Shown here in pieces: positions 11,431-30,189 of a stretch of DNA of 64,000 bases (positions within the stretch are counted from its first letter, which is position 1; every line of letters starts with the position of its first letter). The translations under genes were made by a program, and so were the position numbers. Below the pieces are notes generated by a model. That model was given only the letters and a program-made list of their open reading frames with translations. It did no database searches and had not been told where the DNA came from. Origin of the DNA: Amycolatopsis nigrescens CSC17Ta-90 (GTDB lineage Bacteria > Actinomycetota > Actinomycetes > Mycobacteriales > Pseudonocardiaceae); assembly GCF_000384315.1 (NCBI RefSeq), contig NZ_ARVW01000001.1, positions 248,001-312,000 of the forward strand, read 5' to 3'.

Positions 11431-11484
11431 CGCGACGGAACGCCCGGCTAGAGATCCGCCTCCGCCACAAGACGGCCCTGCCAG

Positions 11485-12291
11485 TCAGTCGAAGCAAGAC
11501 AGGCTGCGGGGTTCGAGGATTTCCAACAGGGAGAGGTCGGTCGGCACCAGGGAGGTCGTCGACAGCAGTTCGATGATCAGATTGTGGTTGAGGGAATTGC
11601 CCACCGGTTCACCTACTTCGTCCCGGGTCAGGCCGGTCACTCCGGCGCGAGCCAACCGGGTACGCACTCGGACGACGACGTGCTCGACCTGCTTCTCGCT
11701 CCAGGGTTTGCCTTTCGGCGACAGCGCCCCAAGTTTCCGTTGGGTGGCCTCATGCAGTTCGGTGAGTTGCCGGGAGACCTGTTTCCGTGCCATGGGCTGC
11801 GGCTGCGGCTGCTGGAGCAAGTAACGTTGTGCCAGTGCGACCAGTACGAGCCGTTCCTCGGGGGTCAACGTCCATACCCTGCGCGGGGAGGTGATGTCAT
11901 CCGGCTGGGCCGCTGGGAGCTGTCCGCATTCCCCGGCGACGTAGACCTCCAGCAGGTGCTGGCGGTCGCGGGCCCCTGGCACGAACAGCGCGGTGTATCC
12001 CTCGGGGAGGGGAACTGGTTCGTCCGTTGCGCACAACAGCCGGTCTTTCGGCAATCTCATCGACACTTTCCCGGTGTTGCGCACCCACCAGCGCTGTTCC
12101 CGGAAGACCAGCATGCCCTGGCGCCGGCTGACCGTGCGGTCGTCCGCGCCAACACAGATATGCACCTCATCGCTTTGCCGACCGAAAAGCAGGGTACGGC
12201 CGTCACTCGGCTTAACGGTGATACGCCCGGTGAGGGCCTGCGCGAAGATCGTGCCGGGCACGGAAGGCGGTACCCCGTAGGCAAGTGACAT
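11485..12291 (-). CDS. FHA-domain protein with C-terminal winged-helix-like region
   Basis: 268 residues. The FHA core is LFGRQSDEVHICVG, TVSRRQGMLVF and WWVRNTGKVS, with the FGR, SRR and N phosphothreonine-pocket residues in place (about 33–75). Residues 140–235 have TPEERLVLVALAQRYL and SEKQVEHVVVRVRTRLARAG, a helical region like a DNA-binding or effector-response domain. It is 13 bases downstream of the Ser/Thr kinase gene, so it is the likely phospho-target or reader of that kinase. Actinobacterial kinase/FHA pairs commonly work this way. Confidence 0.75.
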   Translation of the reverse strand: MSLAYGVPPSVPGTIFAQALTGRITVKPSDGRTLLFGRQSDEVHICVGADDRTVSRRQGMLVFREQRWWVRNTGKVSMRLPKDRLLCATDEPVPLPEGYTALFVPGARDRQHLLEVYVAGECGQLPAAQPDDITSPRRVWTLTPEERLVLVALAQRYLLQQPQPQPMARKQVSRQLTELHEATQRKLGALSPKGKPWSEKQVEHVVVRVRTRLARAGVTGLTRDEVGEPVGNSLNHNLIIELLSTTSLVPTDLSLLEILEPRSLSCFD

Positions 12292-12304
12292 GCTCTGGCT
12301 CCCG

Positions 12305-14269
12305 TCAGGCTTTCGGAATTTTCTTGACGACCGCGTCGGCCAAGGTGGTGACCGGTGCGCAGTACTGGTCCGATGGCAACGGTCCGGACATCAGCACCAG
12401 TACCGTCTCGGCCGAGCGGGAACCGCGCGGGTCGGTGTAGAAGCGGTGCACCATCTTGACCTGGCAACTGTCCGACTCGTATTCGTTGACGCCGACATAC
12501 GCTTCGCGATCGCCGATCCTGACCTGCTTTCCGTCCCGGCCATCCGGGGGCGACGCGTGGTCGAACCGCACGCGGACGGTCGTACTCGAAGCCGAGTCCT
12601 CCCATTCGCAGTCCCAGTTGGCGAATGCGGGGTCGACCTGTGGCGTGTCCAGCTTGGCGACCGTGGCCAGCGCCCCGGCATCGAGCAGGGTGCAGGCGTC
12701 GAGTCTGGCCAGTGACGCGGAGTTGGCTCGCGTGGTCCGCCGCGGCATCCCGGACGCGGACAACACCCCGACCGCAACCTGGGTCGCGGTATCGGCGATC
12801 GCGCAGAGATCGGACTGGTCCGGGTCGGATTCCCAGCGCGCCACGACATCCACCCGGTAGCCGTCATGCAGGTGGATGAGCCTGCCGCACTCACCACCCT
12901 TGTACGAATCCCGCGACACCTCGAACGGCCCGACCCGCACCACGTCGCCCTCCGGGGGAAACCCGGATCCAGGCGGATCGAACAGCTCCACCTTGACGTC
13001 GATCTCCTTCCCACCGGGCCGTTCCACCACCACGTCGCACCGGCTGAAGCCGCCGTAGTCCGAATCCAGCGTCGCCTCCCCGTACTCCTTGAGCCGGGCA
13101 AGGTCGAGCAGTGGGCACGGATCGACCGCACGGACATCACCACCTACGCCCACCCGCGCGGACAATGCGCTCGCGGCGGGTGGCGAAGTGGAAACGCCGT
13201 CCACACCGTCGAAGTTGACCACGGAGACGACCACCGCGATCAGAACCACCACGGTCACGGCCGCACCCGCCTGCACCCGGCGCCGAGTGGTCCAGCGGAA
13301 TGAGTTCCACCGCGGGGTCCGGCCGGACCGCCGGGCCCCGGTGGGTGCCGGACGCGCCGGGAGGTCGTCGGTCGAAGTGCCGTTGCGGCACGCCGTCAGC
13401 AGTGGCCGCACCTCGGAAGCCTTCGGCCGCTCCTGCGGATCCATCCGCATCAGCGTGGCCAGCACCGGCTCCAACTCGCCCGCGCATTGAGGCGGGGTCA
13501 CCGCACCGGCCACGGTCTTACGGAGCACCGCATACGGATTCGCACCGGCAAACGGCGGCTTACCCTCCACCGCCGCGTAGAGCGTCGCACCGAGCGCGAA
13601 GACATCCGCGGCCCTGGTTGGCTCCACCCCGTCGGCCACCTCGGGCGCGATGTAGCCCGGCACACCGCCGACCACCGGGGCCTGGGTGATCGTCTCATCG
13701 GTCAGCACCGAGCGGGAAATCCCGAAGTCGGTCAGCTTGACCGCGCCCAGCGCGGTGATGAGCACATTGCCCGGTTTGATGTCGCGATGCACGATCCCTT
13801 GCCGGTGTACCGCTTCCAGCGCGTCGGCGAGCTGCCGGCCGATCTCGATGACGGTCGGCACCGGCAAGGATCCGTGCACCAGCATTTCGGCGAGGCTGAA
13901 TGCGGGCACCCATTCCATGACCAGCCACAACCCGTCACCTTCGACGAAGGCGTCGTGGACCGTTACCACGTTCGGATGTTGCAGCCCGGCGGCCAGCTTC
14001 GCCTCGCGCAACAGTTTCTGGCTACTCGCCGAATCCGGCAGTTTCGCCTGTTTGAGGGCGACCATCCGGGAAAGACGGTGGTCAAAGGAGCGCCAGACCA
14101 CTCCCATCCCGCCGGAGCCGATCTCTTCGAGGAGCTGGTAGCGATCCGCGATCAGCTGATTGGTCTCGGCTGCCGCACCCTCTCGAGCCCGGCTGAACTG
14201 TGCCGCGTATTGCGATTGGCGCATTTCCGGAGGTTTCATCGCACGGACCAGTTCAGCGACCTGCGCCAT
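12305..14269 (-). CDS. Transmembrane Ser/Thr protein kinase with two DUF3558-like sensor domains
   Basis: 654 residues. Kinase domain about 44–300: IGSGGMGVVW (G-loop), VALKQAK (Lys), HRDIKPGNVL (catalytic loop), TDFGISR (DFG). One membrane span near 332–354 (VTVVVLIAVVVSV). The extracytoplasmic part is two similar units of about 140 residues, beginning DPCPLLD and DACTLLD, each ending with paired Cys; they resemble DUF3558 lipoprotein domains rather than PASTA. So the kinase probably senses an envelope ligand or state different from muropeptides. It is followed closely by an FHA protein and sits downstream of the two-component operon. Confidence 0.85.
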   Translation of the reverse strand: MAQVAELVRAMKPPEMRQSQYAAQFSRAREGAAAETNQLIADRYQLLEEIGSGGMGVVWRSFDHRLSRMVALKQAKLPDSASSQKLLREAKLAAGLQHPNVVTVHDAFVEGDGLWLVMEWVPAFSLAEMLVHGSLPVPTVIEIGRQLADALEAVHRQGIVHRDIKPGNVLITALGAVKLTDFGISRSVLTDETITQAPVVGGVPGYIAPEVADGVEPTRAADVFALGATLYAAVEGKPPFAGANPYAVLRKTVAGAVTPPQCAGELEPVLATLMRMDPQERPKASEVRPLLTACRNGTSTDDLPARPAPTGARRSGRTPRWNSFRWTTRRRVQAGAAVTVVVLIAVVVSVVNFDGVDGVSTSPPAASALSARVGVGGDVRAVDPCPLLDLARLKEYGEATLDSDYGGFSRCDVVVERPGGKEIDVKVELFDPPGSGFPPEGDVVRVGPFEVSRDSYKGGECGRLIHLHDGYRVDVVARWESDPDQSDLCAIADTATQVAVGVLSASGMPRRTTRANSASLARLDACTLLDAGALATVAKLDTPQVDPAFANWDCEWEDSASSTTVRVRFDHASPPDGRDGKQVRIGDREAYVGVNEYESDSCQVKMVHRFYTDPRGSRSAETVLVLMSGPLPSDQYCAPVTTLADAVVKKIPKA

Positions 14270-14446
14270 GTGGAGCCCGGCGGCCTGCGATGAACTCTGC
14301 TGCGCGCGGTGCGGTCATTTTCCTTCCCCGTTGATTCCGTTGGCGGCCCGCACTCCAGCGGACCGGGCGAGCACCTTTCGTCAAACCCTAGACCAGTGGA
14401 CCAGGTGGTGTGAGGGCTGTTCGGCCCCCACTGTCCGCTACTGGCG

Positions 14447-15085
14447 TTACAGGTCGTCGACCCGGACGATTCCGTCCTGAATCGCCCGTGCCACCAGTGC
14501 CGCCTTCGTCGGTGCGGGTCTGCCGGCATTGGCGTATTTGATCCGCACCCGATCCAGATATCCGTTGACCGTGCTGACCGATAATCCGAGCTTCTCCGCA
14601 ACCATATCCTTGGATTCACAGGTGAACCAGTTGATCAGTACATCTTCCTCGCGGGGAGACAACCGCGGGCGGCTACTGTTGGTGTCGGTGCCGAGCGCGC
14701 CAGCCATGGCCGGTGGGGTGTAGGGCCGATCCTGGGCGGCGGCATGGATCGCGGCGACCAGATGATCTTCTCCCTCGGCTTTGGCCAGGTAGACGGCGGC
14801 ACCGATTTCGAGGCAGTTCAGCGCGGTATCCCGGTCGTCGCGCATGGTGTACACGATCACCTTGCGGCCGTCGTCGACCAGACGTTTCAGGTCCGCGTAG
14901 GCGGGGGTGGCCGATCCCAGCAGGAGGTCGAAGATCACCACGCGCGCCGAGCGTCCGGGCTGCCGCCAGGCCACGGCCACGCCGGGCCCCGCATCGACCA
15001 CGTGGACGGGCGGCTCTGCTTCGGCGCACCACGCACGCACCCCGGCGAGCACGACCGGGTGGTCGTCGACCAGCACCGCCGTCAC
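14447..15085 (-). CDS. LuxR/NarL-type response regulator
   Basis: 212 residues from GTG (AAAGGAAC upstream). Receiver: VLVDDHP acidic pair, IFDLLLG phospho-Asp, VYTM Thr and LAKAEG Lys. HTH: LSPREEDVLINWF, SKDMVAEKLGLSVSTVNGYLDRVR, followed by an unusually long loop KYANAGRPAPTKAALV. Its start overlaps the stop of the degenerate kinase-like gene by 4 bases. Targets unknown; the Ser/Thr kinase gene 177 bases downstream is an obvious candidate. Confidence 0.85.
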   Translation of the reverse strand: MTAVLVDDHPVVLAGVRAWCAEAEPPVHVVDAGPGVAVAWRQPGRSARVVIFDLLLGSATPAYADLKRLVDDGRKVIVYTMRDDRDTALNCLEIGAAVYLAKAEGEDHLVAAIHAAAQDRPYTPPAMAGALGTDTNSSRPRLSPREEDVLINWFTCESKDMVAEKLGLSVSTVNGYLDRVRIKYANAGRPAPTKAALVARAIQDGIVRVDDL

Positions 15086-16194
15086 GGATTGTTCCTTTCC
15101 CACCTGGCCTCCACCCACACTCGCCCGGCCCGCTCCAGGCCGGACACGGTAACGCCGGCGTTGCCGCGTCCGGGGACGGCATCCGCTGGCGCGTTGGCGA
15201 TCACGCTCACTATCACCTTTTCCGGGGACCCGACGACGGTCACCCGCACCCCCGACCGGGCGGCGGCGAGTACCGCGATCACCGGTTCGGTCAATTCCCG
15301 GCGCACCGCCTTCGCCAGTTGCGGGCGCTGGCCGCGTACCGCCAGTGCGACCGCCAGCCCCTTGCGCTCGGCCGTGCCGAGGCAGGAGTTCAGCTCGTGC
15401 AGGAGCGGATCGGATACGTCGTCGCTTTCCGCGAAAAGGCGGCGCATTCTGGCCGCCTCGATCGCGCATTCGGTACGCACCCCTTCGTCGCCGGGATCCA
15501 GCCGGCCCGAGGCCAGCCCGTCGAGCAGCGGCACGACGCTCGTCGCGAGTTGGGCGTACCGTTCGCCGCGGTCCCGATGCAGTTGCTCGGCCACGGCATG
15601 GCCGGTCCGCACCTCTTCCTGCTCCTGCGCCGTGCGCGCCGCGGTCACCGATACTCGCCGCAGCCACAGGGCGCCCATGGCCACCGCGAGCTGGAAGGCC
15701 ACCGGAAGGATGCTGGCCAACAACAGTTCGGCAAGGACGAGCCGCCCTCCGTGACCGGTACCGATGACGTAGCCGAAGCTCAGCACGACATGGACGGCCA
15801 GGAACAGTCCCACCGCCTGTACCGAGTAATCGAGCAGCAGCAGGAGCAGTACCCATCCGACGGCGCGGATCGACCAGCCCGCGTCCCCGCTCAGCCGCGC
15901 GGGCGGCGCGCCGACCAGTGCGGCCACCGCCGCGGCCAACACCAGTCCGGTGAGGATCCAGCGCCACCGGCCCAGCGGCCATCTCCGCCACAGGAAAACG
16001 CCGACGACGAGGGTGATCGCGATCAACACCGAAAATGCCGCGAGCTCCACCGCGAACGACCGGTAGATCCCGGCGCGGGCGGGAAACCACGGCAGGATCA
16101 GGAAGAACAGCACGGCCAGCGTGATGCCCAGGGTGGCCAGCCGCAGCGCGCGAAGGAAACGGGCCGCGGTCAGTTCCTGCCAGCCGCTATCCAC
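15082..16194 (-). CDS. Degenerate sensor-kinase-like membrane protein
   Basis: 370 residues with about five or six hydrophobic spans in the first ~190, then a helical linker (EEVRTGHAVAEQLHRDRG) and an ATPase-like C-terminal domain. The H-box typical of HisKA_3 is not convincing, and the N-box region reads ELTEPVIAVLAAA, with no Asn where ATP/Mg binding needs it. A trace of the G-box remains (VPGRGNAGVTVSGLER). It therefore is probably a regulatory or heterodimer partner, not an independent kinase. It overlaps the intact kinase gene by 8 bases and the regulator by 4. Confidence 0.75.
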   Translation of the reverse strand: MDSGWQELTAARFLRALRLATLGITLAVLFFLILPWFPARAGIYRSFAVELAAFSVLIAITLVVGVFLWRRWPLGRWRWILTGLVLAAAVAALVGAPPARLSGDAGWSIRAVGWVLLLLLLDYSVQAVGLFLAVHVVLSFGYVIGTGHGGRLVLAELLLASILPVAFQLAVAMGALWLRRVSVTAARTAQEQEEVRTGHAVAEQLHRDRGERYAQLATSVVPLLDGLASGRLDPGDEGVRTECAIEAARMRRLFAESDDVSDPLLHELNSCLGTAERKGLAVALAVRGQRPQLAKAVRRELTEPVIAVLAAARSGVRVTVVGSPEKVIVSVIANAPADAVPGRGNAGVTVSGLERAGRVWVEARWERNNP

Positions 16195-17374
16195 CGGACC
16201 ACTCCACCCGCACCCGGGTGCCGTGGCCGGGCCTGCTGGTCACGGTGGCCGTGCCGCCGGCTCGATGCATCCGCTCGATGATGGACAGCGAGACGCCGCG
16301 ACGGTCGGGCGGCACCGCGTCCGGGGTGAAACCGCGGCCTTCGTCCACCACCTCGATGTGCACGCACCCGGCCACCGAGCCAACGGCCATGGACGCGGCC
16401 GGACAACCGGAATGGCGGAAGACATTGGTCAACGCCTCGGTCACGGCGCCGCACAGGGCCAGCCCGGGTGCCCGCGGGAGCACGAGTTCGGGCGGCAGGG
16501 ACGAGGCCACCTCAAGCCGGCTGCGCGCAGCCGCCGCCGCGAGCAACGGGACCAGGTCCACTTCGGCGGCACCGTCGCGCTCCTCGCGCAGGATCGCGGC
16601 ATCCCGGGTAGCCTGCTCGGCTAGCCAGGGCTGGCTTCCGTCAACGACCCCGGTGCCGACCATGAGCAGCGTGGCCGCCGCGGTGTCGTGCAGGGCACTG
16701 AGGTACTCGCGTTCATCGGCGCGCCGGGCAGCGGCGACCGCGGCGTCCCGGCGCGCCCGCTCCCGCTCGCCGATGATCTGGTCGGCGGTACGGCTGCCCC
16801 GACGCACCAGGCTCCACAGCCCGCGGGACAACGCGCCTTCGGCGACCAACCACACGTTGGTCACGGCACCGACCCAAGAGGTGGGATCGGCTCGTACGAG
16901 GCCGAGAATGTAAGCCAGGGTGAGCAGCCCGGTGATCGCCATTCCCACTCGCGGCCCGGTGTGCCACTGGCAGGCGACGATCACGATCGACACGACCATC
17001 AGCACCCAGCCGGTCCCGGCGTACAGGGAGTCCTTCGACAGCGCCGTCCACGCTTGGGTCAGGCACAAGGCGGCGACCATACCGGTGTCCGCGAGAATCA
17101 GCCACGAGCCGGCCCCGCGCCGCAGTGCGATCACGTACCCGGCGTTCCAGAGATTGATCGCCACCACGGCCCCGACGAGCGCTGCGTTACCGGGCCAGGC
17201 GGCAATGAGCGTGATCACGCCGGCACTCGCGATCACGGCTGTTCGCGAGATGGCCGCGGCCCGCCGGCCCAGCAGGTGAACTTCTCGTTCGACGGCGCCC
17301 GTGACCGACTCGCCCCGGAAGCGGCCTCGCCAGAGACCGGCGGACCGGTGCCCGGTTTCGGACGCGCTCGCCAT
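16187..17374 (-). CDS. NarL-type sensor histidine kinase
   Basis: 395 residues from the ATG at 17374, chosen for GAAGGGAACGCC upstream; the frame is open 210 bases further. About six N-terminal spans, then HisKA_3: YLSALHDTAAATLL (phospho-His in LHD). ATPase: N-box AVTEALTNVFRHSG, G1 DEGRGF, G2 RRGVSLSIIERM, GHGTRVRVEW. All catalytic boxes are present, in contrast to its downstream partner. It is the first gene of a three-gene operon with 8- and 4-base overlaps. Confidence 0.85.
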   Translation of the reverse strand: MASASETGHRSAGLWRGRFRGESVTGAVEREVHLLGRRAAAISRTAVIASAGVITLIAAWPGNAALVGAVVAINLWNAGYVIALRRGAGSWLILADTGMVAALCLTQAWTALSKDSLYAGTGWVLMVVSIVIVACQWHTGPRVGMAITGLLTLAYILGLVRADPTSWVGAVTNVWLVAEGALSRGLWSLVRRGSRTADQIIGERERARRDAAVAAARRADEREYLSALHDTAAATLLMVGTGVVDGSQPWLAEQATRDAAILREERDGAAEVDLVPLLAAAAARSRLEVASSLPPELVLPRAPGLALCGAVTEALTNVFRHSGCPAASMAVGSVAGCVHIEVVDEGRGFTPDAVPPDRRGVSLSIIERMHRAGGTATVTSRPGHGTRVRVEWSGG

Positions 17375-17593
17375 GGCGTTCCCTTCAGCACCCGTGTATT
17401 CACCGCTGGGGCAGAACTGAACCTTATCGGTGCGCATACAGAAGCACCGGAACAGGCTGGTCGACGACATCACGGCGCGTTCGAGACCATCAAGAAACGT
17501 GTCTCGGATCTGGTTTCCACCGGTCGCCCCGATACGGTCAAGTCGATACTGCTCAATCTCTGTGGAAACGTCGGGTCGCCGCACCTGGCCGAG

Positions 17594-18511
17594 TTATTCC
17601 GGTCGCAGAACGACAGTCACCGTCCGGTTCTGCGCCCGGCCGTCCGCGGCCGTGTTGGGGAATGGTGGGTCGGCCGCGCCTGCGCTGGACAGCGCGAACA
17701 TGGATAGTGGCAGTGCACTTGCCTGGGACATCCACTCCGCGGCAGTCTTGGCGCGGGCTTGGCCGAGGTCCACATTGTCGGTGAACTCGCCGGTGCCGGA
17801 CACCGGCGAGTCCGAGGTGTGGCCGACAACGGCGACCGACACCTTGGTGCTAAGTCCGCGCAGCCGTTGGGCGAGCCCGGCCAAGGCCGCACGCCCATCG
17901 TTCGACAATTGGACGCCGGTCGTGAACACGCCGACGGGGAACGAGACGACCAGCGTCCCCGATTCGACGTGCGCGCTCGCCGCGCGATTGCCGGCGAGGG
18001 CCGCGGTGAGTTCGTCAAGTACGCCCTGCCGCCGCTGCGCGGTCTGATCGAGCCGGTCGTTGATCGCGTCAAGCTGCCGGGCTTGTTCACGCTGACTGCC
18101 CTGGACGCCGTTCAGCCCGGCGAGGACGGCCGGATCGGGTCCGGGCTGCTGCCTGGTCAGCAAGGCGCCGACGACACCGGCCCCGGTCACCACCCCCGCC
18201 GCCAGCGCGACGACCAGCACCACCCGGCCAGTGCGCGGCCGCACGCCTCTGGCCTGCAGTGCGGCGATCCGCCGCCGGCCCTCGCGCGCCCCGGGCAGGT
18301 CGCCGTCCAGCCGCTGCGCCAGCACCCAGCACTCGTCGGCATCGAACAGTTCACCGCGCTGGGCGTGGATCCTGGCCTGGAGGTCCAGCACCGCCGGATC
18401 GTCGCTGTCCCTGCCACCCAGTTCGCGCAGCACGTCCCCGGCCGCACGGTACTGGCCGTTCCTGGCCAGCTGGGTGGCGCGGGCGAGCGGCGCGATCGTG
18501 CCGGCGCTCAT
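17594..18511 (-). CDS. TPR-like/transmembrane/OmpA-type peptidoglycan-associating protein
   Basis: 305 residues. N-terminal 1–90 are TPR-like helices (ATQLARNGQYRAAGDVLREL, LDLQARIHAQRGELFDADE). One span near 98–118 (VVLVVALAAGVVTGAGVV), then a coiled linker (NDRLDQTAQRRQGVLDELTA) and an OmpA/MotB-type domain (about 170–305): SVAVVGHTSDSP, FTDNVDLGQARAKTAAEWM, GRAQNRTVTVVL. The OmpA fold normally contacts peptidoglycan; it is uncommon in Actinobacteria. The start overlaps the Hsp70 stop (ATGA). It likely anchors or informs the chaperone module about the cell wall; that role is inferred. Confidence 0.75.
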   Translation of the reverse strand: MSAGTIAPLARATQLARNGQYRAAGDVLRELGGRDSDDPAVLDLQARIHAQRGELFDADECWVLAQRLDGDLPGAREGRRRIAALQARGVRPRTGRVVLVVALAAGVVTGAGVVGALLTRQQPGPDPAVLAGLNGVQGSQREQARQLDAINDRLDQTAQRRQGVLDELTAALAGNRAASAHVESGTLVVSFPVGVFTTGVQLSNDGRAALAGLAQRLRGLSTKVSVAVVGHTSDSPVSGTGEFTDNVDLGQARAKTAAEWMSQASALPLSMFALSSAGAADPPFPNTAADGRAQNRTVTVVLRPE

Positions 18512-21039
18512 CGGTCACCGACGGTGACAGTGCTGCCGAACGGGCCCGAGATGTCGGCGATCTCGACGTCATCGGGCGCGATCTTCTCCAGCTGATTGTT
18601 GATCGAGTTCAGCTGGGCGCCGTCACCGCGGTCCAGTGCCGTCCTGCCCTCCCGGAGCAACCGCTGCACGCGCGGATCGGGATTGCCGGTCAGCCCCCGC
18701 TCGCGCGCCATGAAGATCACCGTATCCAGCTGGCCGGTCTCCTGTAGAACCTCGCGAAAGATGTCCCGCAGCACCCCGATCTGGCGTTGCAGCACCGTCC
18801 GGTCTCCCGCGGTGATGGCGGATTCCATCGTCCGCTCGGCATTGCGCAAATCGTTCCTGCGTGCGGCGCTGCCCGACTCGTTGACCAGCCCGCGCACCCC
18901 GTCCAGGACCGTGTACGCCTCGTCGACCAGTTCGGGGAACAGCAGTGCCGCCTCGACCTCGTCGAGAGTCGTCTGCGCATCCCGCAGCTGACGCTCGCAG
19001 GTCGACGCGGCGTCCGGATCGACCTCGGCGGCGTCAGCCAACTGCCGGATGCCGGCCAGCACCTCGTCCGCGCGGAACCGGTCGATCAGCTCTACCGCCT
19101 CGACCGCACCGGAGCGCACCTGGTCGGTACGATCGGCAAGTTCGGCGAACCGGTCGGCCAGATCGTCAACGGCCGCACCGAGATCCGCGCCATCGGCCGG
19201 TCCGGTGCGGCCGAGTTCCACCTGGATGGGGAACTCCTCGTCGAGCAGCGGCACGTAGGCGTCGGCGCGCGGCGCGAAGCTGGTGTCGATCCGCAGGTGC
19301 ACCTCGACCTCACTGCCGGCCGGCACGTCCCGGCCGACCTCGGCGGGTGCGATGTCCAGCCGACCGATCAGCATGTTCCGGTCGGCCTTGGGCCGCTCGC
19401 CCTCGACGATGGGCACCCTGATCATGCCGGTCCGCTCGTTGCGCCGCACGTGCACCGTCGACCGGAGGATCAGCCGCTTCTTGGCCGGTAGCTCAGTTCC
19501 CTTGCGCACCAGCCATTCCACCTCGTTGTTGTCCAGGCCGACGCCGATCGAGTGACTGAGCGTCGGCGCCGTGCCGATGATCGGCGTATGCCGGTAAGGG
19601 ATGAGATCCGGTTCGGTGGGCAGCAGGGTTCCCTTGGCGTCGCGCAGTTCGATGGTGTAGTTGTTCGTCGTCCGCTCGTCGGCGTGCAGCCGGGCGGCGA
19701 AGGTCCCCTCCGCGGTCAGTGGGATCCGGCCGCTGCGCCACGCGGGTTTTCCGTCCGGATTCACGAACTCGATCGTCGCGCCGGTCCAGTCCTGCGGCTG
19801 CGCGGTGCGCGGTGGCAGGCCGCCGACCAGTGGCTCGACATCCGAGCCCGCCGTCTTGTACTGCAGGTCCAGTACGACCCGGCCCTGGCTCAGCGCCTGC
19901 TCGGTCCGCTCGACGCGGTGCGGCATGCGCTGGGTGCCGGCGAAGATCGCCGCGCCACGAGCGACCACGGTAACCGGGTCGAGACTGTGGTCCAGCGCGA
20001 TGCCAAGGCCTTCCGCCGGGTCTGCGAGCAGCTCGCGCAGGGCCGGCGCGATCGTGGTGCCGCCGACCAGCAGCACGCGCTCGATGTCGGCGGGGCCGAG
20101 ACCGGAATCCGCGAGAGCCTTGTGGCACAGCGAGATCGACCGGCGGTAGAGCGGCAGCGCGGCCCTCTCGACGTCCGCCCTGGTCAGCTCGTACTCGAAG
20201 TCGAACTCCGGCTTGCCATCGGCGCAGTCGTTGAGCGTGAGCTGGATATCTACACTGTCCACTCGCGACAGCTGGATCTTGGCGCTCTCCGCCGCCGCCT
20301 TGAGTTTCGCCAGGTTGCCGGCCGACCTCCGGTGACCGCGGGCCAGTTCGGGCAGGTTGAACTCCTTCCGCGCGGCGGGAACGAGAACGTCCTCCACCAA
20401 CGCCCAGTCGATCAGCTTGCCGCCGAGGAAGTTGTCCCCCGCATGGTTGACCGTGCTGAACTCGCCGTCGGCCACCTTCACGACGGCGGCGTCGAAGGTG
20501 CCGCCACCGAAGTCGTACACCAGCCAGAAGCCGCGGTCGTGCCCGAGTCGCGTGCTGTAGGCCCACGCCGCCGCGCTCGGCTCCTGGATCAGCGGCGCGA
20601 AGTCGAGGCCGGCCAGCACGGCCGCCTTGCGGGTGGCGTCGCACTGGTCGAGCTCGAAGGCCGCCGGCACGGTGATCACCGCGGCATGAATGCTTTCCCC
20701 GGAAGCCTGCTGCACGTCACCACGCAGCGACTTGAGCACTTCGGCGGACAGCTCCTCCGGGGTCATGCTCCGTCCGGCCACCTCGAACAGCTTGTGCTCG
20801 CCCACCACACCCATCTGGAGCTTGAATTCCGCGCAGGCGTTGTCCGGGTCCTCCTCGACCCGATCCTTGGCCGGCGCGCCAACGAGAATCTTCTGCGAGC
20901 GGCTGATGTAGACCGCGGAAGGCGTGTACTCGGCTTGCAGGTTGTTGCGGATCACCGTCGCGTCATCGGCCGTGGCCATTGCGATGGCACTGTTGGTAGT
21001 GCCGAGGTCGATACCGAAGTCAGTCGTCTCGCGAACCAT
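18508..21039 (-). CDS. Divergent Hsp70 (DnaK-like) chaperone
   Basis: 843 residues, about 200 longer than DnaK. ATPase motifs: FGIDLGTTNSAIAM at the N-terminus, YDFGGGTFDAAVV (phosphate 2) and LLVGGTTIAPALREL (adenosine). EPSAAAWAYS matches the conserved EPTAAALAYG strand. The substrate-binding part is divergent, followed by about 200 residues of helices/coiled coil (DDLADRFAELADRTDQVRSG, RDAQTTLDEVEAALL). It is not housekeeping dnaK: there is no EEVD-like or DnaK-type tail, and it sits with dedicated J-like and GrpE-like partners. Start overlaps the GrpE-like gene by 20 bases. Confidence 0.85.
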   Translation of the reverse strand: MVRETTDFGIDLGTTNSAIAMATADDATVIRNNLQAEYTPSAVYISRSQKILVGAPAKDRVEEDPDNACAEFKLQMGVVGEHKLFEVAGRSMTPEELSAEVLKSLRGDVQQASGESIHAAVITVPAAFELDQCDATRKAAVLAGLDFAPLIQEPSAAAWAYSTRLGHDRGFWLVYDFGGGTFDAAVVKVADGEFSTVNHAGDNFLGGKLIDWALVEDVLVPAARKEFNLPELARGHRRSAGNLAKLKAAAESAKIQLSRVDSVDIQLTLNDCADGKPEFDFEYELTRADVERAALPLYRRSISLCHKALADSGLGPADIERVLLVGGTTIAPALRELLADPAEGLGIALDHSLDPVTVVARGAAIFAGTQRMPHRVERTEQALSQGRVVLDLQYKTAGSDVEPLVGGLPPRTAQPQDWTGATIEFVNPDGKPAWRSGRIPLTAEGTFAARLHADERTTNNYTIELRDAKGTLLPTEPDLIPYRHTPIIGTAPTLSHSIGVGLDNNEVEWLVRKGTELPAKKRLILRSTVHVRRNERTGMIRVPIVEGERPKADRNMLIGRLDIAPAEVGRDVPAGSEVEVHLRIDTSFAPRADAYVPLLDEEFPIQVELGRTGPADGADLGAAVDDLADRFAELADRTDQVRSGAVEAVELIDRFRADEVLAGIRQLADAAEVDPDAASTCERQLRDAQTTLDEVEAALLFPELVDEAYTVLDGVRGLVNESGSAARRNDLRNAERTMESAITAGDRTVLQRQIGVLRDIFREVLQETGQLDTVIFMARERGLTGNPDPRVQRLLREGRTALDRGDGAQLNSINNQLEKIAPDDVEIADISGPFGSTVTVGDR

Positions 21040-21523
21040 CGTCCTGTCCTTTCTCGGGCACGCCCACGATTACGTGGCCGAGCTGGATGCATTGCCCGCC
21101 GCGATAGATCGACGGTCGCACGGTGTCCACAACTGTTTCCCTGTCCAGGTTCGACCGCGGCTCGTAGGCCAGTGCCTTCAACGACATACCGGGATCCCAC
21201 ACGAGGTCGTCATGGTCCTGCACGCGCACGCCCGCCTCGGCCAGCCGGTCGGACATGGACGTGAGATTCCTGGCCGCCAGTCGTTGTGCCTTCGGAACTT
21301 CGTCGTCTCCGGTGAACCTCTTCCGCACGCGCCACAGGTTGGTGACGATGTCCGCCACCGTCGCATCGTCCATATCGGACGGAGCGGCCGGCAACCGGTC
21401 GATCACCGGCTCCGGCTCAGGCTCATCCTGAGCCGGTCCCGGCGACGCCGGCTCCGATATGCGGAACTCCCGCGGAAACCTCAGCTGCCGGGCCCGCCGG
21501 CGAAAGTCAGTCAACCAGGCCAT
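21020..21523 (-). CDS. GrpE-like nucleotide exchange factor (divergent)
   Basis: 167 residues. After an acidic/proline linker comes a helical section (ATVADIVTNLWRVRKRF, LAARNLTSMSDRLAEAGVRV) and a terminal beta section RETVVDTVRPSIYRGGQCIQ followed by LGHVIVGVP, closely resembling the C-terminal beta domain of GrpE, which opens the Hsp70 nucleotide cleft. Position immediately before the Hsp70 gene supports this. The long paired helix of DnaK-type GrpE is shortened. Similarity is by eye only, so the family call is moderate. Confidence 0.65.
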   Translation of the reverse strand: MAWLTDFRRRARQLRFPREFRISEPASPGPAQDEPEPEPVIDRLPAAPSDMDDATVADIVTNLWRVRKRFTGDDEVPKAQRLAARNLTSMSDRLAEAGVRVQDHDDLVWDPGMSLKALAYEPRSNLDRETVVDTVRPSIYRGGQCIQLGHVIVGVPEKGQDDGSRDD

Positions 21524-21529
21524 CCCTTC

Positions 21530-23125
21530 TCAGCCTCCCGCCACGGCGGCGGCCCACTTGTCCAGCCGCTGCCTGCGCCAGGCCAGCACACCCGCCGTCG
21601 CGAGGATCATCGCCAGGAACGTCAGCAGCCTGGCCGGATCTCCGAACGGCCCGATGACAAAGAACGCCAACAGCAACAACGCCACCAGCCGCCACCACCG
21701 GGTCAGCCTGCTCATCGGCACCTTGCCGTAGAAGTACAGGTCGTCCCGCAAATGGGCGGCGACTGGGATCACCGGCACGAAGAACACGGTGATGAAATGG
21801 GTGGTGACGAACTTTCCGCCGTCGCCCGTCCACCGCTTGCCCATCAGGTACATGCCCCAGCCGAACCACGAACCCCGGAACGGCAGCGAGCCGGTCAACG
21901 GCGCCCGAAGCGCCATCGGGTCGGCGAGCACCTTGTCGATCCCGTCGCGAAGCCGCTCATCGGTGGTGTGCCTGCGCAACGCGCGGAGCCGGTCGGCCGC
22001 CTTGTCGACCCTGCTCTTGACGCGAAGGTCCTCGACCTTGCCGGTCACGAGCTGGTCATTGATCACTGCCAGGTTCTTGTCGATCAGCTCGATCGTGGTG
22101 CGCTCCCTTGCCATGCTCCGCGCCTTGGGCAGCAAGGTCAGCGCCGGGCCACCGGCCGAGGTCAGATTGTCGTGCGACACCGCGCACAGGTTGAGCGACC
22201 TCGCGGACAGATCGTGCGCCGCGGCGGTGACCGGATCATCGGCACCTAGCAGTCCGGCGATCACCCGTAACGGCGACCGGACCTGTGTCAGCAGCGCGTG
22301 ACCGGCGGTGATCGCGTCCTGAGGAGAGGTCAGCGAAACCCGGTCGGCCGTTTCGCAGGCGGTGTGCACCCGTGCTTCCGCCGGCCGTACCGCGTCCCGC
22401 AGGACCAGGTCGACCATGTCCTCATCGAACGGCGACTCGTCGAGCAGCCACAGATGCCGGTCCGCAGCCTCGACGCCGATCTCCTCGGCCGCTTTCACCG
22501 CGAGCGCGATACTGACCCCGGCGATGTGCGCCGGCAGGCGGTCGCGCAGCCGCCGGACCGTGCCGGTCGTCAACCGCGGGTCGCCGATCTCCTTCACCCG
22601 TCTTCTTGCCCAGTCCCAGGTTTCCTCCGACGACAGCACGTCGGCCCACGCCTGCAGTGCCACCAGCCACTCGTATCCCAGCGGATCTTCGTCCACCTCC
22701 GGCCGGCCGGGCGCACTGAACGACGGCCCTTCGAGCACGCCGCAGTGCCGGCGCACCGCGTAGTCGTGGTCGTCCTCGGTGCCCCGCAGCCACAGCAGTT
22801 CGTGCACCAGCCGCAGCACCGGGTTGCGCAACGACTCGAACGCGGCGTTCACCGCATCCCTGTCCGGAGCCGGGGCGAGCGGCAGCTCACCGGATGCCGC
22901 GGCCGGTGGCATCCCCAGTTGAGCGGCCAGCGCGGCTTCCTCGCGGCGACGGCGGATCTGCTGCGGCGACGCGCTGGTCGGCAGGCCGGTCATCCGGAAC
23001 ACGTTGTTGCGATACATGCCGGCGCCGGTGAGCTCGCGCAGCACGTCGTCCAGTTCGGTATCCGTCGGTCGCATCCGGCCCAGTCTCCCCGCCGGGTGCC
23101 TGTCCTCGGCCGCTGATGTCACCAT
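21530..23125 (-). CDS. J-domain-like membrane co-chaperone
   Basis: 531 residues from the ATG at 23125, which overlaps the kinase stop by one base (TGATG); an upstream in-frame start would run into the kinase gene. Near residues 35–70, YRNNVFRMTGLPTSASPQQI with RRRREEAALAAQLG resembles the first part of a J domain (NxFxxLGL...ATPxxIRRR), but no canonical HPD triad is evident. The middle is helical. Two or three membrane segments occupy the C-terminus (FVTTHFITVFFVPVIPV, LVALLLLAFFVIGPF, LTFLAMILATAGVLAW). It would place the Hsp70 at the membrane. The co-chaperone role rests on context plus weak motif similarity. Confidence 0.6.
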   Translation of the reverse strand: MVTSAAEDRHPAGRLGRMRPTDTELDDVLRELTGAGMYRNNVFRMTGLPTSASPQQIRRRREEAALAAQLGMPPAAASGELPLAPAPDRDAVNAAFESLRNPVLRLVHELLWLRGTEDDHDYAVRRHCGVLEGPSFSAPGRPEVDEDPLGYEWLVALQAWADVLSSEETWDWARRRVKEIGDPRLTTGTVRRLRDRLPAHIAGVSIALAVKAAEEIGVEAADRHLWLLDESPFDEDMVDLVLRDAVRPAEARVHTACETADRVSLTSPQDAITAGHALLTQVRSPLRVIAGLLGADDPVTAAAHDLSARSLNLCAVSHDNLTSAGGPALTLLPKARSMARERTTIELIDKNLAVINDQLVTGKVEDLRVKSRVDKAADRLRALRRHTTDERLRDGIDKVLADPMALRAPLTGSLPFRGSWFGWGMYLMGKRWTGDGGKFVTTHFITVFFVPVIPVAAHLRDDLYFYGKVPMSRLTRWWRLVALLLLAFFVIGPFGDPARLLTFLAMILATAGVLAWRRQRLDKWAAAVAGG

Positions 23126-24225
23126 CAGGCCAGCACTCCCTTCCGCCACAGCCGCAGTCGTTGCTCGTACTCGGTACGCAGCTCTGGAGACTTGTTGAAT
23201 GCCTCCTCCATGAGATCGGCCGCCTCCGGCAAACTCGTGGCTTGGCGCGCCAAGGACTTCGCTTGCTCAGCCAACCGGTCCGCCTCGGTTTCGTTGGCCG
23301 GCGAAGGGGCACCCAGCACGCTCTTGGAAGTCTGAAGCGTTGGGTTGACGGCCTGCTTGGCCCGTTGCCTGTCCCAACCGGCTAGCCAGTCCGCCAACTC
23401 GCCGGCGAGCGCGCCCGCGTCCCGTGTGCGGGTGGCCGGGTCCGGGTCGAGAGCGCGCAGCACCATCCGGTCGAGTTCATCGTCGACATCGGCGTTGAAC
23501 TCGTGCGGCGGACGCGGCGGGACCCTGCGCTGGGTACCGAAGTACGACATGGGCCCGCGGTCCTCGTAGGGCAGGGTGTCGGTGAGCAACAAGTAGGCGA
23601 TGGCCCCGATCGCCCACACGTCACCGGCTCGCGAGTCTCCCCGCTTGTTGAGCAGCGACTCCGGTGCTTTGAACGCCAGCGTGCCCTTGGTGCTGGCCAG
23701 CATGGTCATCGGGTTGACCCGTTTGGCCAGCCCGAAGTCGCTGATCCTGGCGCGCAGACCGTCATGGTCATAGCCGACCAGGACGTTCTGTGGTGTGAGG
23801 TCGCGGTGGATGACGGCCGGGCGCGCCGAGTGCGCGACCCCGAGGCCCTCGGAGATCTGGTGCAGAATCCGCACCGAGTCGTCGATCGGCACGAACCTGT
23901 TCCGGTGCGAGGCCCAAAAGCTCTGCAGGTTTCCCCCGGCGACGTACTCCATGGTGAAGTAGCCCCTGGTGCCGTGTGCGGTTGACACGGTGTTCGCATC
24001 GAACACCCGGACGATGTTCGGGTGGCCGATCTGCGTGAGCAGGATGGCCTCACCGAGCATCGCCTTGGTTTCCTCGGCAGTGCCAGCGCGTTTGAAGACC
24101 TTTATCGCCTGACGGCCGAGAATGTGGTGGTGCACGCGGTAGACCTCGGCGAACGCGCCCTCTCCCAGGAACCGTTCAACCTCATAGGTGTCTCCTATCC
24201 GCTGGCCGTCCTCGAGCAGCCTCAT
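23125..24225 (-). CDS. Cytosolic Ser/Thr protein kinase of the Hsp70 operon
   Basis: 366 residues. Intact catalytic motifs: LGEGAFAEVYRV, QAIKVFK, VIHRDLTPQNVLV (Thr in place of the usual Lys two after Asp), ISDFGLAKR, KAPESLL. Kinase domain about 12–275. No membrane span; the C-terminal 60 residues are helical, including SLPEAADLMEEAFNKSPELR, which may dock a partner. First gene of the operon kinase/J-like/GrpE-like/Hsp70/OmpA-like, where every junction is an overlap or at most 6 bases apart. Likely phosphorylates the chaperone components. Confidence 0.85.
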   Translation of the reverse strand: MRLLEDGQRIGDTYEVERFLGEGAFAEVYRVHHHILGRQAIKVFKRAGTAEETKAMLGEAILLTQIGHPNIVRVFDANTVSTAHGTRGYFTMEYVAGGNLQSFWASHRNRFVPIDDSVRILHQISEGLGVAHSARPAVIHRDLTPQNVLVGYDHDGLRARISDFGLAKRVNPMTMLASTKGTLAFKAPESLLNKRGDSRAGDVWAIGAIAYLLLTDTLPYEDRGPMSYFGTQRRVPPRPPHEFNADVDDELDRMVLRALDPDPATRTRDAGALAGELADWLAGWDRQRAKQAVNPTLQTSKSVLGAPSPANETEADRLAEQAKSLARQATSLPEAADLMEEAFNKSPELRTEYEQRLRLWRKGVLA

Positions 24226-24375
24226 GCCGCCTCGGTGCGGAACGGGTCAGCACTGGTCGTTTTCGCCCTGGCTCTGATCATTGCCATCGGCCTCGCGCCA
24301 TTCCATCGTGGCCACCTACCGTCCACGTCATTGTCACGATGAACATGGGGACCGGTCCCGAATGCACCTGGCGTG

Positions 24376-24401
24376 CTAAGTTAGCCGTGTGACTAACTTA
24401 G
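24376..24401. promoter_or_regulatory. TetR-type operator covering the start codon
   Basis: CTAAGTTAG (24376–24384) and CTAACTTAG (24393–24401) form a perfect 9-bp inverted repeat with an 8-base spacer. The GTG start of the next gene (24389–24391) lies inside the spacer, so the transcript is probably leaderless and repression would block initiation directly. Confidence 0.75.
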
Positions 24402-25009
24402 TCGGATGGCTAAACTACTGGCAGCCGCTGCCGGCCGGCACGGAGGGACGGCTGCAGCGCCCCAACTGGCTGCTGGGCCACGCGCCGGCCAGGAACGAAC
24501 GCCTGTTGGTCGGCGCTACGGCCGTCGGCGGGACGGTCGCCGTCTGCCTGCTGGCCGCGCGCAGCGGCGTGTCGTGGGCATGGTGGCAGTGGCTGATCGT
24601 CGCGGTGATCGCCGTGGACATGGTCGGCGGACCGGTCGCGAACGCGCTGCGCGGGGCCAAGCGGCTTTATCACTCGCCGTTGCCCGCCTCGGCCACCCCG
24701 CTGCAACGGCTGCTGCACAACCGGCTCGCGTTCACGATCATGCACGTGCAGCCGTTCATCGTGGCCGCGTTCCTGCCGGGACACGCCTGGCTGTGGGCGA
24801 CCGCGATCTACGGCATCGCGGTGCTCGGTGTCCTCGCGGTCGCGCTCGCGCCGGCCCAGCTCGCCGAGCCGGTGGCCTTCGCCGCGGCCACGGTGGCCCT
24901 CGTGGTCGTGCCCACGCTCACCGCACCCGCCGGAATGGCCTGGCTCGGGTACGTGCACGTGGTGAAGCTCGTGCTCGCGCACGCCGTCCCGGATCACCGC
25001 CGGTCATGA
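24389..25009 (+). CDS. Integral membrane protein, TetR-linked
   Basis: 206 residues from GTG within the palindrome. About five hydrophobic spans (VGGTVAVCLLAA, LIVAVIAVDMVGGPVANAL, IVAAFLPGHAWLWATAIYGI, VAFAAATVALVVVPTL and the final GYVHVVKLVLAHAV). There is no ribosome site before the GTG because the palindrome fills that space, which fits a leaderless message. No transporter signature is recognised. It overlaps the TetR gene by 4 bases and is presumably the target of that repressor. Confidence 0.65.
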   Translation: MTNLVGWLNYWQPLPAGTEGRLQRPNWLLGHAPARNERLLVGATAVGGTVAVCLLAARSGVSWAWWQWLIVAVIAVDMVGGPVANALRGAKRLYHSPLPASATPLQRLLHNRLAFTIMHVQPFIVAAFLPGHAWLWATAIYGIAVLGVLAVALAPAQLAEPVAFAAATVALVVVPTLTAPAGMAWLGYVHVVKLVLAHAVPDHRRS

Positions 25010-26379: not shown

Positions 26380-29300
26380 TCAGGACGGTGCGCATTCGGG
26401 GATGGGTGCTGCCTCGCTGAGGATCTGGCAGAGCTGTTGTGCGACCGCTTCGGGCTTGATGTTCCAGATGCCGACGGTGCTGTCGGTGCTGGCCGTGGCG
26501 AGCAGTTGTCCGTCCGGGGAGAACTCCACTTCGTTGGGGGCGCCGGTATGCCCGTCGAGGCGGGCCAGCAGGGTGCCTGTTCTCGAGTCCCAGAGCCGGA
26601 TGGTGCTGTCACCGGTCGTTCCGGTCGCGAGGGTGCCGTCGTCGGCGAACGCGAGGGTGCGGATCTTTGCCGGGTGTTCGCCGAACTCGCCGACGGCACG
26701 GCCGGTGTCGAGGTCCCAAAGCCGAACACGGCCGTCATCGTGGCCCGTGGCGAGGGTGGCGCCGTCCGGGCTCAGCGTGATGCCGGTAAAAGGCAGGTCG
26801 GTGCGAACGATGGCCGATGATTCCGCGAGATTCGACGTTTTCCAGGATCGCACGACAAAGGAGCCGGCTGTTCTGAACGACCCTTCGTGCACCACGGCCA
26901 GAAAGCGCGTTCCGTCCGCGGTGAAGAGGATCTGACCCGCGGAAATGACCGCTTTCCGGTCTTCGGCGGGGTGAAATTCGGCGACCAGCGCACGCGTTCG
27001 CGCATCCCAGATGTGGATCTTGCTCTGGCCCCCGGCTGTTGTCTTGCCGGCCTCACTCGTTGCCGCGAGCAGGTTTCCGTCTGGGGATATCTCGACGGCA
27101 TCGAGCCGTCTGCCGGCGGCGGTGATGATCTCGGGTTGGGCCGAACCGGGTCGCCACAGCTTGACGGCATCCTCGGCGACGCTCGCCACGGTACCGTCGG
27201 GGCCGAAGGCGACTTCGGTAACCGTAGTCACCGGATTCGGGTTGCCAAGAGCGAGAACTGTGGCGGCTCTCCCCGGCACATCCCAGCGGAGAACGGACCC
27301 GCCGCTGTTGCCCGACGCCAGCGCTTCTCCCGACCGATCGAAGGTGGCGCTCGTCGCGGCGTTCCGACCGGGGGTCAGGTCGCCCTTGGCGGAGAACGCT
27401 CCCGTTCGCCAGACAGTCCCCAGGCCCGTGCCGGAGACGGTGACCACGGTCTTGCCGTCCCGGGACAGGGCGAGGTCCCCGGTCTCGCCGGCGACCGAGC
27501 TGAACTTGTCGATGACCTTTCGCTCCGACACGCCCCAGAAATCGACCTCACCCCGCACCGAGGACAACGCGAGGTAGTCGCCACCGGGCAGGAACATCCC
27601 CCGCCGCTGATTCTGTTCCGAGCTTATGCCCAGCTCGGTTTCCCTGACGCCGGTGATGGGGTCCCACAGGAAGACGTTCGTCTGCGTGCTGAAAACGGCC
27701 AGCACGTTGTGGTCGGAGAACGTGACGCCCTCGGCTGCCGCGGCCGGATTCCCGAGCGAGAATTCGGTGACCTTCGCGTTGTCAGCCGTCCGGTAGATTT
27801 CCACCTTGTCACGAAGGTGGCCTGTCGCGATGAGGGTGCCGTCTGGGCTGTAGGCGAGGGAATGCGCCGAATTGTCCACCGGTGTCGCGATCTGGCGGAG
27901 CACCTGACCCGAGTTGACGTCCCATTCGACCACGTCCGGGGTCAAGACCTTGCTTACCCCGAGGAGTGCCTTACCGTCGGATCGCCAGGCCGCTCTTATC
28001 CCACCCGGAAGTTCGGTCAGCAGCTCACCGCTGGGGACTTTCCAGATTCTGAGGTGGCTTTCACCCTCTGCGATCGGCGCGCTGAGGGACGCGGTCGCCA
28101 GCATTGTGCCGTCCGGTGAGAACGCGACCGACGTGATATCGCCGTGCTGGCCCTTGAACTCCGCGGGTAACCGCCGATGAGTCGCGGTGTCCCAAAGCTG
28201 AATGCTGCCGCCGGCACCGCCGAAGGCAGCGAAAGAACCATTGGGGCTGACCGCTATCACCGGATCGAGCAAGCCGGTGTCGAGCCGGCCGTGGTAGTTG
28301 AGTGCTTGTGCGGACAGGAGTGCGCTGCGTGCCTCCGTGGTAGGTGCGGCACGCCAGGCCCGCAACGCGAAGCTCATCGCCTCGCGCGGGTTTGACTTGA
28401 CGGCAAGCTGGGACTCGGCGGCGAACTGCCGTGACAGGGCCAGGGCTTGCTCGTGCTCCACCGCCGAGCGTTGCACGAATGCCACGACCCCCGCGGTCAG
28501 AGCGAGGACCAGCATGACGGCCACCGCGATCAGCAGCCGGCGCAGCCGGCGGCTCGTGCGACGCTCGGCGATCAGCGTGGCATGGGTCGCTTCCGTGCTG
28601 GCGGAAAGGAAACTCCACTCGGTCGCGGACAGGTCGGTCCGGCCTCCGGCCCATTCCTGAGCCGCGGAGAGCCGGGAACCCCGATAGAGCGCTCCGGGGT
28701 CACGACCCGAGGCCTCCCAGTAGTGGGCGGCATCGTTGAGCTGCTGGCGGATCGCGATTCCTTCGCGGTCGGCGTCGATCCACTGACGCAGGCGAGGCCA
28801 GTTGCGCAGCAGCGCCTCATGGGTGATTTCGACCGTGTTCTGGGTCTGGGTGAGCAGTCGTGCGTTGGTGAACGCGTCGATGATCGCGGTGCTGCGCTGG
28901 GGTTCCAGGCCGAGCAGGTGGGTGTGCGGGACGCGCCGCCGGGTTTCCTCGGCACCGTCCACAATGGCCACCAGCCGCAGGAACAGGGAGCGGGCGAGTT
29001 GCTGATCCGGATAGCTGAGCCGCCGGAACACTTCCTCGGCGGTGGTGGCGACGGCATTGGCGATACCGCCGGTGTTCTGGTATCCCTGCACCGTGAGGGT
29101 GGAGCCGTGGCGTTGCTGCCAGGTCGCGCGCAGCGCGTGGGCCAGCAGGGGCAGCCGTCCCGCCTGGCCATCAGCGGCGCCGGCGGCATGGGTTCCGAGG
29201 TCGCGGAGGAGGAGTTCGACCAGGCCGGGCTCGACGTCCAGCCCCGTGCGTTGCGCGGGGAACAGGATCGCCGCACGCAGTTCGGTCTCGTTCATCGGCC

Positions 29301-30123: not shown

Positions 30124-30189
30124 GGGAGAACCCCCTGAACACTCCGGCGCCATCGTACCAATGAGAGCAAGCGCGCCCGGCGTGTCGAA

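Follow-up and report, generated by a model that had tools for sequence, protein, structure and literature searches.

Specialised Hsp70s with membrane J partners, second DnaKs with their own GrpE and neighbourhoods encoding HSP70, GrpE and DnaJ are already known, as far as the relevant passages of the literature tell. Pam16-type J-like proteins have the J fold without the HPD motif, reside at the membrane and act beside the HPD-bearing Pam18. In the classical cycle, the HPD motif and its target arginine are taken as the trigger of Hsp70 (PMC7289447); the HPD aspartate is described in the same passages as perturbing the ion pairs that R167 makes with the linker and the substrate-binding domain (SBD), and R167H is cited there as a suppressor of D35N. 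The specialised Hsp70 HscC is presented in the relevant part of a review (PMC8215388) as having no GrpE signature and as probably GrpE-independent. Here we describe an operon of Amycolatopsis nigrescens CSC17Ta-90 that encodes a divergent Hsp70 together with its own GrpE-like and J-like proteins, and in which the classical trigger appears to be missing on both sides.

The operon lies in the window, by which we mean the whole stretch of 64,000 nucleotides analysed (positions 248001-312000 of a 9.1-Mb single-contig genome). Its features, together with two neighbours that do not belong to the core, are as follows.

23125..24225, minus strand: Ser/Thr protein kinase, 366 aa (Pfam Pkinase, E 4.7e-41; HRDLTPQN and DFG)
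21530..23125, minus strand: J-like membrane protein, start at ATG 23125 or ATG 23074
22790..23014, minus strand: predicted J-like fold without HPD, comprising helices I-IV at residues 21-95 of the 514-aa form (hhalign and model)
22862..22918, minus strand: loop between helices II and III, the expected HPD site (LGMPPAAASGELPLAPAPD), with HPD in 0 of 64 aligned rows
21536..21709, minus strand: two long C-terminal helices of the AlphaFold2 model (456-474 and 480-513), probably in the membrane
21020..21523, minus strand: GrpE-like protein, 167 aa
18508..21039, minus strand: divergent Hsp70, 843 aa (Pfam HSP70, E 1.7e-72)
20593..20595, minus strand: Pro149 of the Hsp70, at the DnaK R167 position by alignment
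19546..19935, minus strand: 130-residue segment between the nucleotide-binding domain (NBD) and the SBD, beta-rich by eye only
17594..18511, minus strand: protein with a TPR-like part, a single span (97-115) and an OmpA C-terminal domain, 305 aa (Pfam OmpA, E 8.8e-9)
12305..14269, minus strand: second Ser/Thr kinase with a span (335-353) and an outer part, neighbour (Pfam Pkinase, E 2.2e-48)
11485..12291, minus strand: FHA-like protein, neighbour (Pfam FHA, E 0.018, below the cut-off)

All five predicted reading frames are present on the minus strand and tightly spaced, and direct reading of the junctions bore out the original prediction of a five-gene block joined by overlaps of 1-20 bases or a 6-base gap. 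The stop codon of the kinase shares one base with the J-like ATG at 23125 (TGATG), and GGAAGGGAG lies upstream; the J-like and GrpE-like genes are separated by 6 bases, the GrpE-like and Hsp70 genes overlap by 20 bases, and the Hsp70 and OmpA genes by 4 (ATGA). Which ATG starts the J-like gene is uncertain: the one at 23125 would give 531 aa, while that at 23074 gives 514 aa, the length of the database entry P0008, and leaves a gap of 50 bases to the kinase. A promoter scan of window positions 11000-25000 found no sigma-70-like promoter, and terminator-like sites were barely above shuffled sequence (8 versus 5.1, sd 2.1). A possible sixth gene of uncertain start (16187-17584), 9 bases past the OmpA stop, encodes a membrane protein resembling histidine kinases. 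It belongs to a pair of adjacent membrane proteins just behind the OmpA gene (15082-17584), of which the first is histidine-kinase-like (MacS model, E 2.8e-15, below its cut-off) and the second has no Pfam match. Upstream of the kinase, a 1257-aa nSTAND1 NTPase with a WD40 repeat array is encoded on the minus strand (26380-30153); it clusters with no gene from the other loci.

To see how widely this arrangement recurs, a single scan of GTDB species genomes was made with the GrpE-like alignment, which gave 70 loci; going by the titles, 69 belong to Actinomycetota, and the remaining one is from Edaphobacter. The 70 neighbourhoods counted are 69 found via the GrpE-like protein plus the window, one locus with a sub-threshold GrpE piece (L088) having been dropped; neighbours were counted on the same strand within 6.5 kb, using profiles built from the proteins of these loci. 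The GrpE-like gene is thus present in all 70 by construction. J-like and Hsp70 genes each accompany it in 69, the exceptions being a locus that begins inside GrpE (L080) and one that ends after GrpE (L070), and an OmpA gene is found in 61; of the nine loci without it, three (L043, L051 and L070) are cut off by the end of the contig. The commonest order is J-GrpE-Hsp70-OmpA (20 loci), followed by kinase-J-GrpE-Hsp70-OmpA (13, window included), J-FHA-kinase-GrpE-Hsp70-OmpA (11) and FHA-kinase-J-GrpE-Hsp70-OmpA (9), so that the conservation of gene order proposed as a check of the original prediction was found. Across 65 loci the distance matrices of the three proteins were correlated (J-Hsp70 0.906, GrpE-Hsp70 0.875, J-GrpE 0.907), and none of 2000 permutations reached the observed correlation, although shared ancestry alone also gives high values; these correlations are as expected if the genes are inherited as a unit. 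Because the same block recurs across loci and the distance matrices correlate, the gene set is beyond chance.

Within the genus, the J-like protein occurs in 17 of 80 genomes, its own included, and the block is therefore accessory rather than core there. When 396 genomes of the phylum were searched with the GrpE-like alignment, 10 matched, the own genome included, a figure that is no measure of prevalence since only the best 8 candidates per genome were considered; the other nine matches are weak (E 6.9e-7 to 2.9e-4) and perhaps represent housekeeping GrpE. Plasmids gave no match to the GrpE-like or J-like protein, and phages none to the GrpE-like protein. A housekeeping DnaK-GrpE-DnaJ cluster lies elsewhere in the genome, near C1:3692292-3695122.

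We then examined the two partner proteins encoded in the window, J-like and GrpE-like, neither of which has a Pfam or NCBIfam match (E up to 1) or a PADLOC match (E up to 0.1). A protein search in which the best 7994 candidates were scored gave at least 38 relatives of the J-like protein, the protein itself not counted; where source names are given, the relatives of both proteins are mostly called 'hypothetical protein'. The AlphaFold2 model of the J-like protein (mean pLDDT 93.6) begins with four short helices in the order of a J domain; an extended array of helices follows, then a small beta part and, at the C terminus, two long helices. The helices of the J block span residues 25-29, 37-52, 72-81 and 85-93, with pLDDT values of 85-96. 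When aligned by hhalign with 30 canonical J domains, residues 8-112 gave a probability of 84.6 over 58 columns and residues 1-105 one of 85.1, compared with at most 0.98 in 60 runs on shuffled controls, some of whose values repeat the preceding one. Windows starting at residue 101 or later gave 0.4 or less, and the window 51-155, which retains helix III, gave 36.5. Phe26, Arg41, Ala78 and Arg88 are invariant across 64 aligned J-like rows and coincide, by eye, with conserved places of the J domain.

Other searches detected this relation faintly. A single canonical J profile reached a best E of 0.039 against the 64 rows, which is weak, and 0.0051 against an Edaphobacter piece, and a regular expression for the helix III-IV signature fits only 47 of the 64. 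In the PDB profile search, DnaJ entries (2ctr, 1bqz, 1bq0, 1xbl, 5nro and 5vso) appeared at E 0.25-1.2, not significant alone, all covering one stretch of the profile (28-89); unrelated designed helical proteins outscored them (E 0.0023). DnaJ was not among the best 25 of 32 Pfam families for the J-like set A4, nor among the 5 NCBIfam families matched, and no J domain was found among the best 50 matches listed for the whole model by either Foldseek or VIA. Those matches are helical-bundle and repeat proteins, and the long helical middle of the model fills the lists. The assignment of the N terminus to the J fold, which is weak by single-profile search, thus rests on profile-profile alignment and predicted helices.

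The J-like proteins differ from canonical J domains in one defining respect. The model contains helices I-IV, as judged by profile-profile alignment and helix prediction, and HPD is absent between helices II and III. This motif is present in 30/30 canonical J domains and in 0/64 aligned J-like rows. In a set of 87 J-like sequences or pieces, which contains duplicates, the J region never has it; the sole HPD in that set is at residue 475 of one protein (L084), far outside that region. Because HPD is not present, the protein was classed only as J-like. Hydropathy places the membrane spans of the window copy at 422-440 and 463-481, so that their exact positions are uncertain relative to the model helices. 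Of the 86 J-like sequences scanned in this way, a set that contains duplicates and pieces, 82 have one predicted span or more. A Septum_form domain (Pfam) was found in nine of ten long J-like proteins, of which eight exceed the curated cut-off and one falls slightly short of it; these ten were picked from the 86 mainly for length. In one of them (L063), the domain is located behind a span at 440-458. The window copy has no Septum_form match. The J-like frame of the Edaphobacter locus (L060, 5670-7998), which is split into two frames, bears an N-terminal response-regulator receiver domain (E 4.2e-8).

The monomer model of the GrpE-like protein, with helices at residues 2-13, 53-70 and 78-96, combines a beta-wing with a helical core, and its 12 best PDB matches are all GrpE. 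With Pfam GrpE, 34 of 70 members give a match at an E of 1 or below, the best being 4.6e-4, and the window protein is not one of them; two of the 49 relatives from the protein search are named 'Nucleotide exchange factor GrpE'. A GrpE-Hsp70 fusion in two loci (L038 and L088) was considered and set aside, as it may be a frame or contig effect. Elsewhere in the same genome, a 178-aa protein (L090, C1:3587293) carries only the C-terminal part of GrpE and lies between two ORFs that look like GTPases by eye; a similar weak GrpE match is present in all 15 genus genomes examined, the own genome included.

The Hsp70 of the window shares 125 of 352 aligned NBD residues with the DnaK of its own genome and has the phosphate and catalytic motifs of the superfamily. 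The comparison set comprised 111 Hsp70s of the family, 110 of them distinct; the loci supplied 67 and the protein search 44. They were aligned with 10 housekeeping DnaKs, taken from this genome and related ones. E. coli residue numbers are assigned by alignment, except for R167, D35, D393 and D481, which are given in PMC7289447. K70, P143, E171, T199 and D201 are conserved in all 111 family members. R167, which is Arg in 10/10 DnaKs, is absent in 111/111: its position holds Pro in 109, with His and Glu in the other two; when the set is thinned at 90% identity, 89 sequences are left, 87 of them with Pro. Arg is kept at R151 in only 2 of the 111, and the N170 position is Gln in 110. The segment between the NBD and the SBD, 19 residues in DnaK, measures 119-142 residues in the family (median 126), the DnaK-type linker (VLLLD) being replaced by about 107 extra residues; the C-terminal part is also longer, with a family median of 256 residues versus 162-177 in DnaK. 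D393 and D481, which are linked to R167, stand outside these counts, since the alignment is disrupted there by the inserted segment and the DIDANG stretch of the reference DnaK contains Asn. The loss of R167 is not unique to this family, as the position is also non-Arg, by eye, in two Hsp70-like proteins of the same genome (L003, C1:6113652; L004, C1:2733237). In both of these, an Hsp70 NBD runs, by eye, into a membrane span and an outer part, apparently without an SBD.

Taken together, HPD is gone from the J-like proteins and R167 from the Hsp70s, which leaves neither side of the classical trigger in place. The original prediction had related the two partner proteins to J and GrpE, had noted that the J-like protein seemed to lack HPD and had suggested that Hsp70 stimulation may work differently. 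The relation to both folds was recovered, for the J part by profiles and predicted helices only; the absence of HPD proved general in the family; and the suggestion of altered stimulation gains weight from the parallel loss of R167 in the aligned Hsp70 sequences.

The remaining operon members may link the system to the envelope and to signalling. NCBIfam as well as Pfam matches the kinase, the Hsp70 and the OmpA domain. The OmpA domain scores 36 bits against a curated Pfam cut-off of 27.2, and its core residues are largely kept (Arg253 in 39, Asn295 in 38 and Arg296 in 35 of 40 proteins). A membrane span is predicted by hydropathy in 39 of these 40; the TPR match is weak (TPR_14, 0.038, below the cut-off). 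The window kinase has no span by hydropathy and has the catalytic loop HRDLTPQN and DFG of Ser/Thr kinases. Among 36 kinases, the window included, 35 have HRD and one HLD, and 35 have DFG and one DYG. The Lys of the HRDLK loop is replaced by Thr or Ser in 34 of the 36, again including the window. In the kinase cluster, which holds both kinase types, 36 of 50 proteins lack a span by hydropathy. PADLOC matches of the kinase (PD-T4-6, MAD6) and the OmpA protein (ZorB) were taken to reflect a general resemblance to kinases and to MotB/OmpA proteins. The second kinase starts about 3.3 kb beyond the OmpA gene, and relatives of the FHA-like protein encoded beyond it occur near the block in 10 other loci. 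Of 27 FHA-group proteins scanned with Pfam, 26 match FHA and 15 match Trans_reg_C.

Some soil actinobacteria, then, carry a second Hsp70 machine whose genes are often accompanied by those of a signalling kinase and a protein anchor of wall type. From sequence comparison and models, we suggest with moderate confidence that this is a dedicated machine at the cell envelope, separate from housekeeping DnaK, DnaJ and GrpE, with rewired J coupling and optional kinase/FHA signalling. Two parts of the original prediction fit this reading: 'self-contained', as the block has its own J-like, GrpE-like and Hsp70 genes beside a separate housekeeping cluster, and 'membrane-tethered', given the spans of the J-like and OmpA proteins. 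A third, gating by phosphorylation, stays conjectural: a kinase is present in 43 of the 70 loci, and as the core has none in range in the other 27, phospho-gating would not be a core property.

In the envelope machine proposed here, the J-like protein would keep the Hsp70 on the inner side of the membrane, either activating it through a rewired contact or acting mainly as a receptor and scaffold. The GrpE-like protein would reset its nucleotide. The TPR/OmpA protein would tie the complex to the wall, the J-like and TPR/OmpA proteins together keeping the ATP-driven Hsp70 at the membrane. Since the HPD-R167 pair is missing, another contact, possibly involving the inserted segment, may trigger hydrolysis, or the J-like protein may be a tether and another partner may be the trigger. 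The kinase could adjust the complex or relay its state, in some loci to FHA/winged-helix regulators. The clients would most likely be membrane or wall-synthesis proteins; the OmpA and Septum_form domains suggest a role in wall or envelope stress.

The presence of kinases and regulators raises the question of whether the system serves signalling rather than folding, with the Hsp70 as a sensor that keeps the kinase or an FHA/winged-helix regulator inactive and frees it when misfolded envelope clients build up. BiP in the eukaryotic unfolded protein response is an analogous sensor. Such a role would draw on the kinases, on the FHA genes (26 of 70 loci), on the Trans_reg_C matches in the FHA group and on the Septum_form domains of the long J-like proteins; however, the 27 loci with no kinase in range, the 44 with no FHA gene and the lack of any Pfam match in the window J-like protein make it fairly unlikely. 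A speculative version that joins both ideas, which we rate as unlikely, is that an Hsp70 running on coupling other than HPD-R167, with the transmembrane J-like receptor as its on-switch, might report envelope damage via the kinase to an FHA-winged-helix transcription factor, as a bacterial counterpart of the unfolded protein response of the endoplasmic reticulum. A conflict or defence system seems very unlikely. Its model would be the GAP1-N2 neighbourhoods with HSP70, GrpE and DnaJ-FNIII, for which the passages concerned propose a role of the chaperone as threshold setter (Kaur et al. 2020, PMC7159879). The genome has no GAP1-N2 (PF20013) match, the searches of plasmids (GrpE-like, J-like) and phages (GrpE-like) gave nothing, and the J-like, GrpE-like and Hsp70 proteins have no PADLOC match at E 0.1, against which stand the patchy occurrence in the genus, the chaperone/co-chaperone theme and the PADLOC kinase and ZorB profiles. 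Most improbable is that housekeeping DnaK has spare partners in the J-like and GrpE-like proteins and that these merely adjoin the divergent Hsp70: although the GrpE fold is general, J-like and Hsp70 genes each lie beside GrpE-like in 69 of 70 loci, the proteins co-diverge (0.88-0.91), and HPD is absent while the 10 DnaKs read retain R167.

If the proposed envelope machine is real, it would be a chaperone tied to the membrane, perhaps the wall, of Gram-positive bacteria, beside signalling kinases. The joint loss of HPD and its arginine, with the J-like fold, the GrpE fold and the catalytic residues retained, bears on whether an Hsp70 can be run in another way; as the trigger is lost on both sides while folds and catalytic residues are kept, such an alternative drive could be tested directly with three purified proteins.

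Compared with known systems, the operon resembles DnaK-DnaJ-GrpE in that three partners are encoded together, with conserved Hsp70 catalytic residues and a GrpE fold. It differs in having neither HPD nor R167, in almost always having lost R151, in the extra residues that replace the linker, in the longer C-terminal part and in a J-like protein that is mostly membrane-bound. As in Pam16, the J-like protein is at the membrane without HPD, but no HPD-bearing Pam18-like protein was seen among the five operon proteins. HscC with the tail-anchored DjlB/DjlC of E. coli likewise pairs a specialised Hsp70 with membrane-anchored J partners, as far as the review passage goes (PMC8215388), whereas here a GrpE-like gene adjoins the Hsp70 (in loci found via GrpE-like) and the loop region is 28 residues long in the window protein, compared with 27-28 residues in DnaK and 21-30 across the family. 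In Myxococcus, too, a second Hsp70, MxDnaK2, shares an operon with a GrpE of its own, but in the passages concerned the linker of MxDnaK2 is reported as nearly identical to that of MxDnaK1 and the operon is called bicistronic (PMC11019930). GAP1-N2 systems share an actinobacterial HSP70, GrpE and J neighbourhood with a membrane/wall flavour, but the passages describing them define them by GTPase, GAP1 and FNIII components (PMC7159879), and the GAP1-N2 domain is absent from this genome. We recognised no description of such an operon in the open-access literature, the scope of our search, subscription papers lying outside it. As far as these passages tell, HscC with DjlB/DjlC, MxDnaK2-GrpE and the GAP1-N2 systems are each partly alike and none has the full gene set; what our comparison adds to the original prediction is the absence of HPD across the aligned J-like family, matched by the loss of R167 in the Hsp70s.
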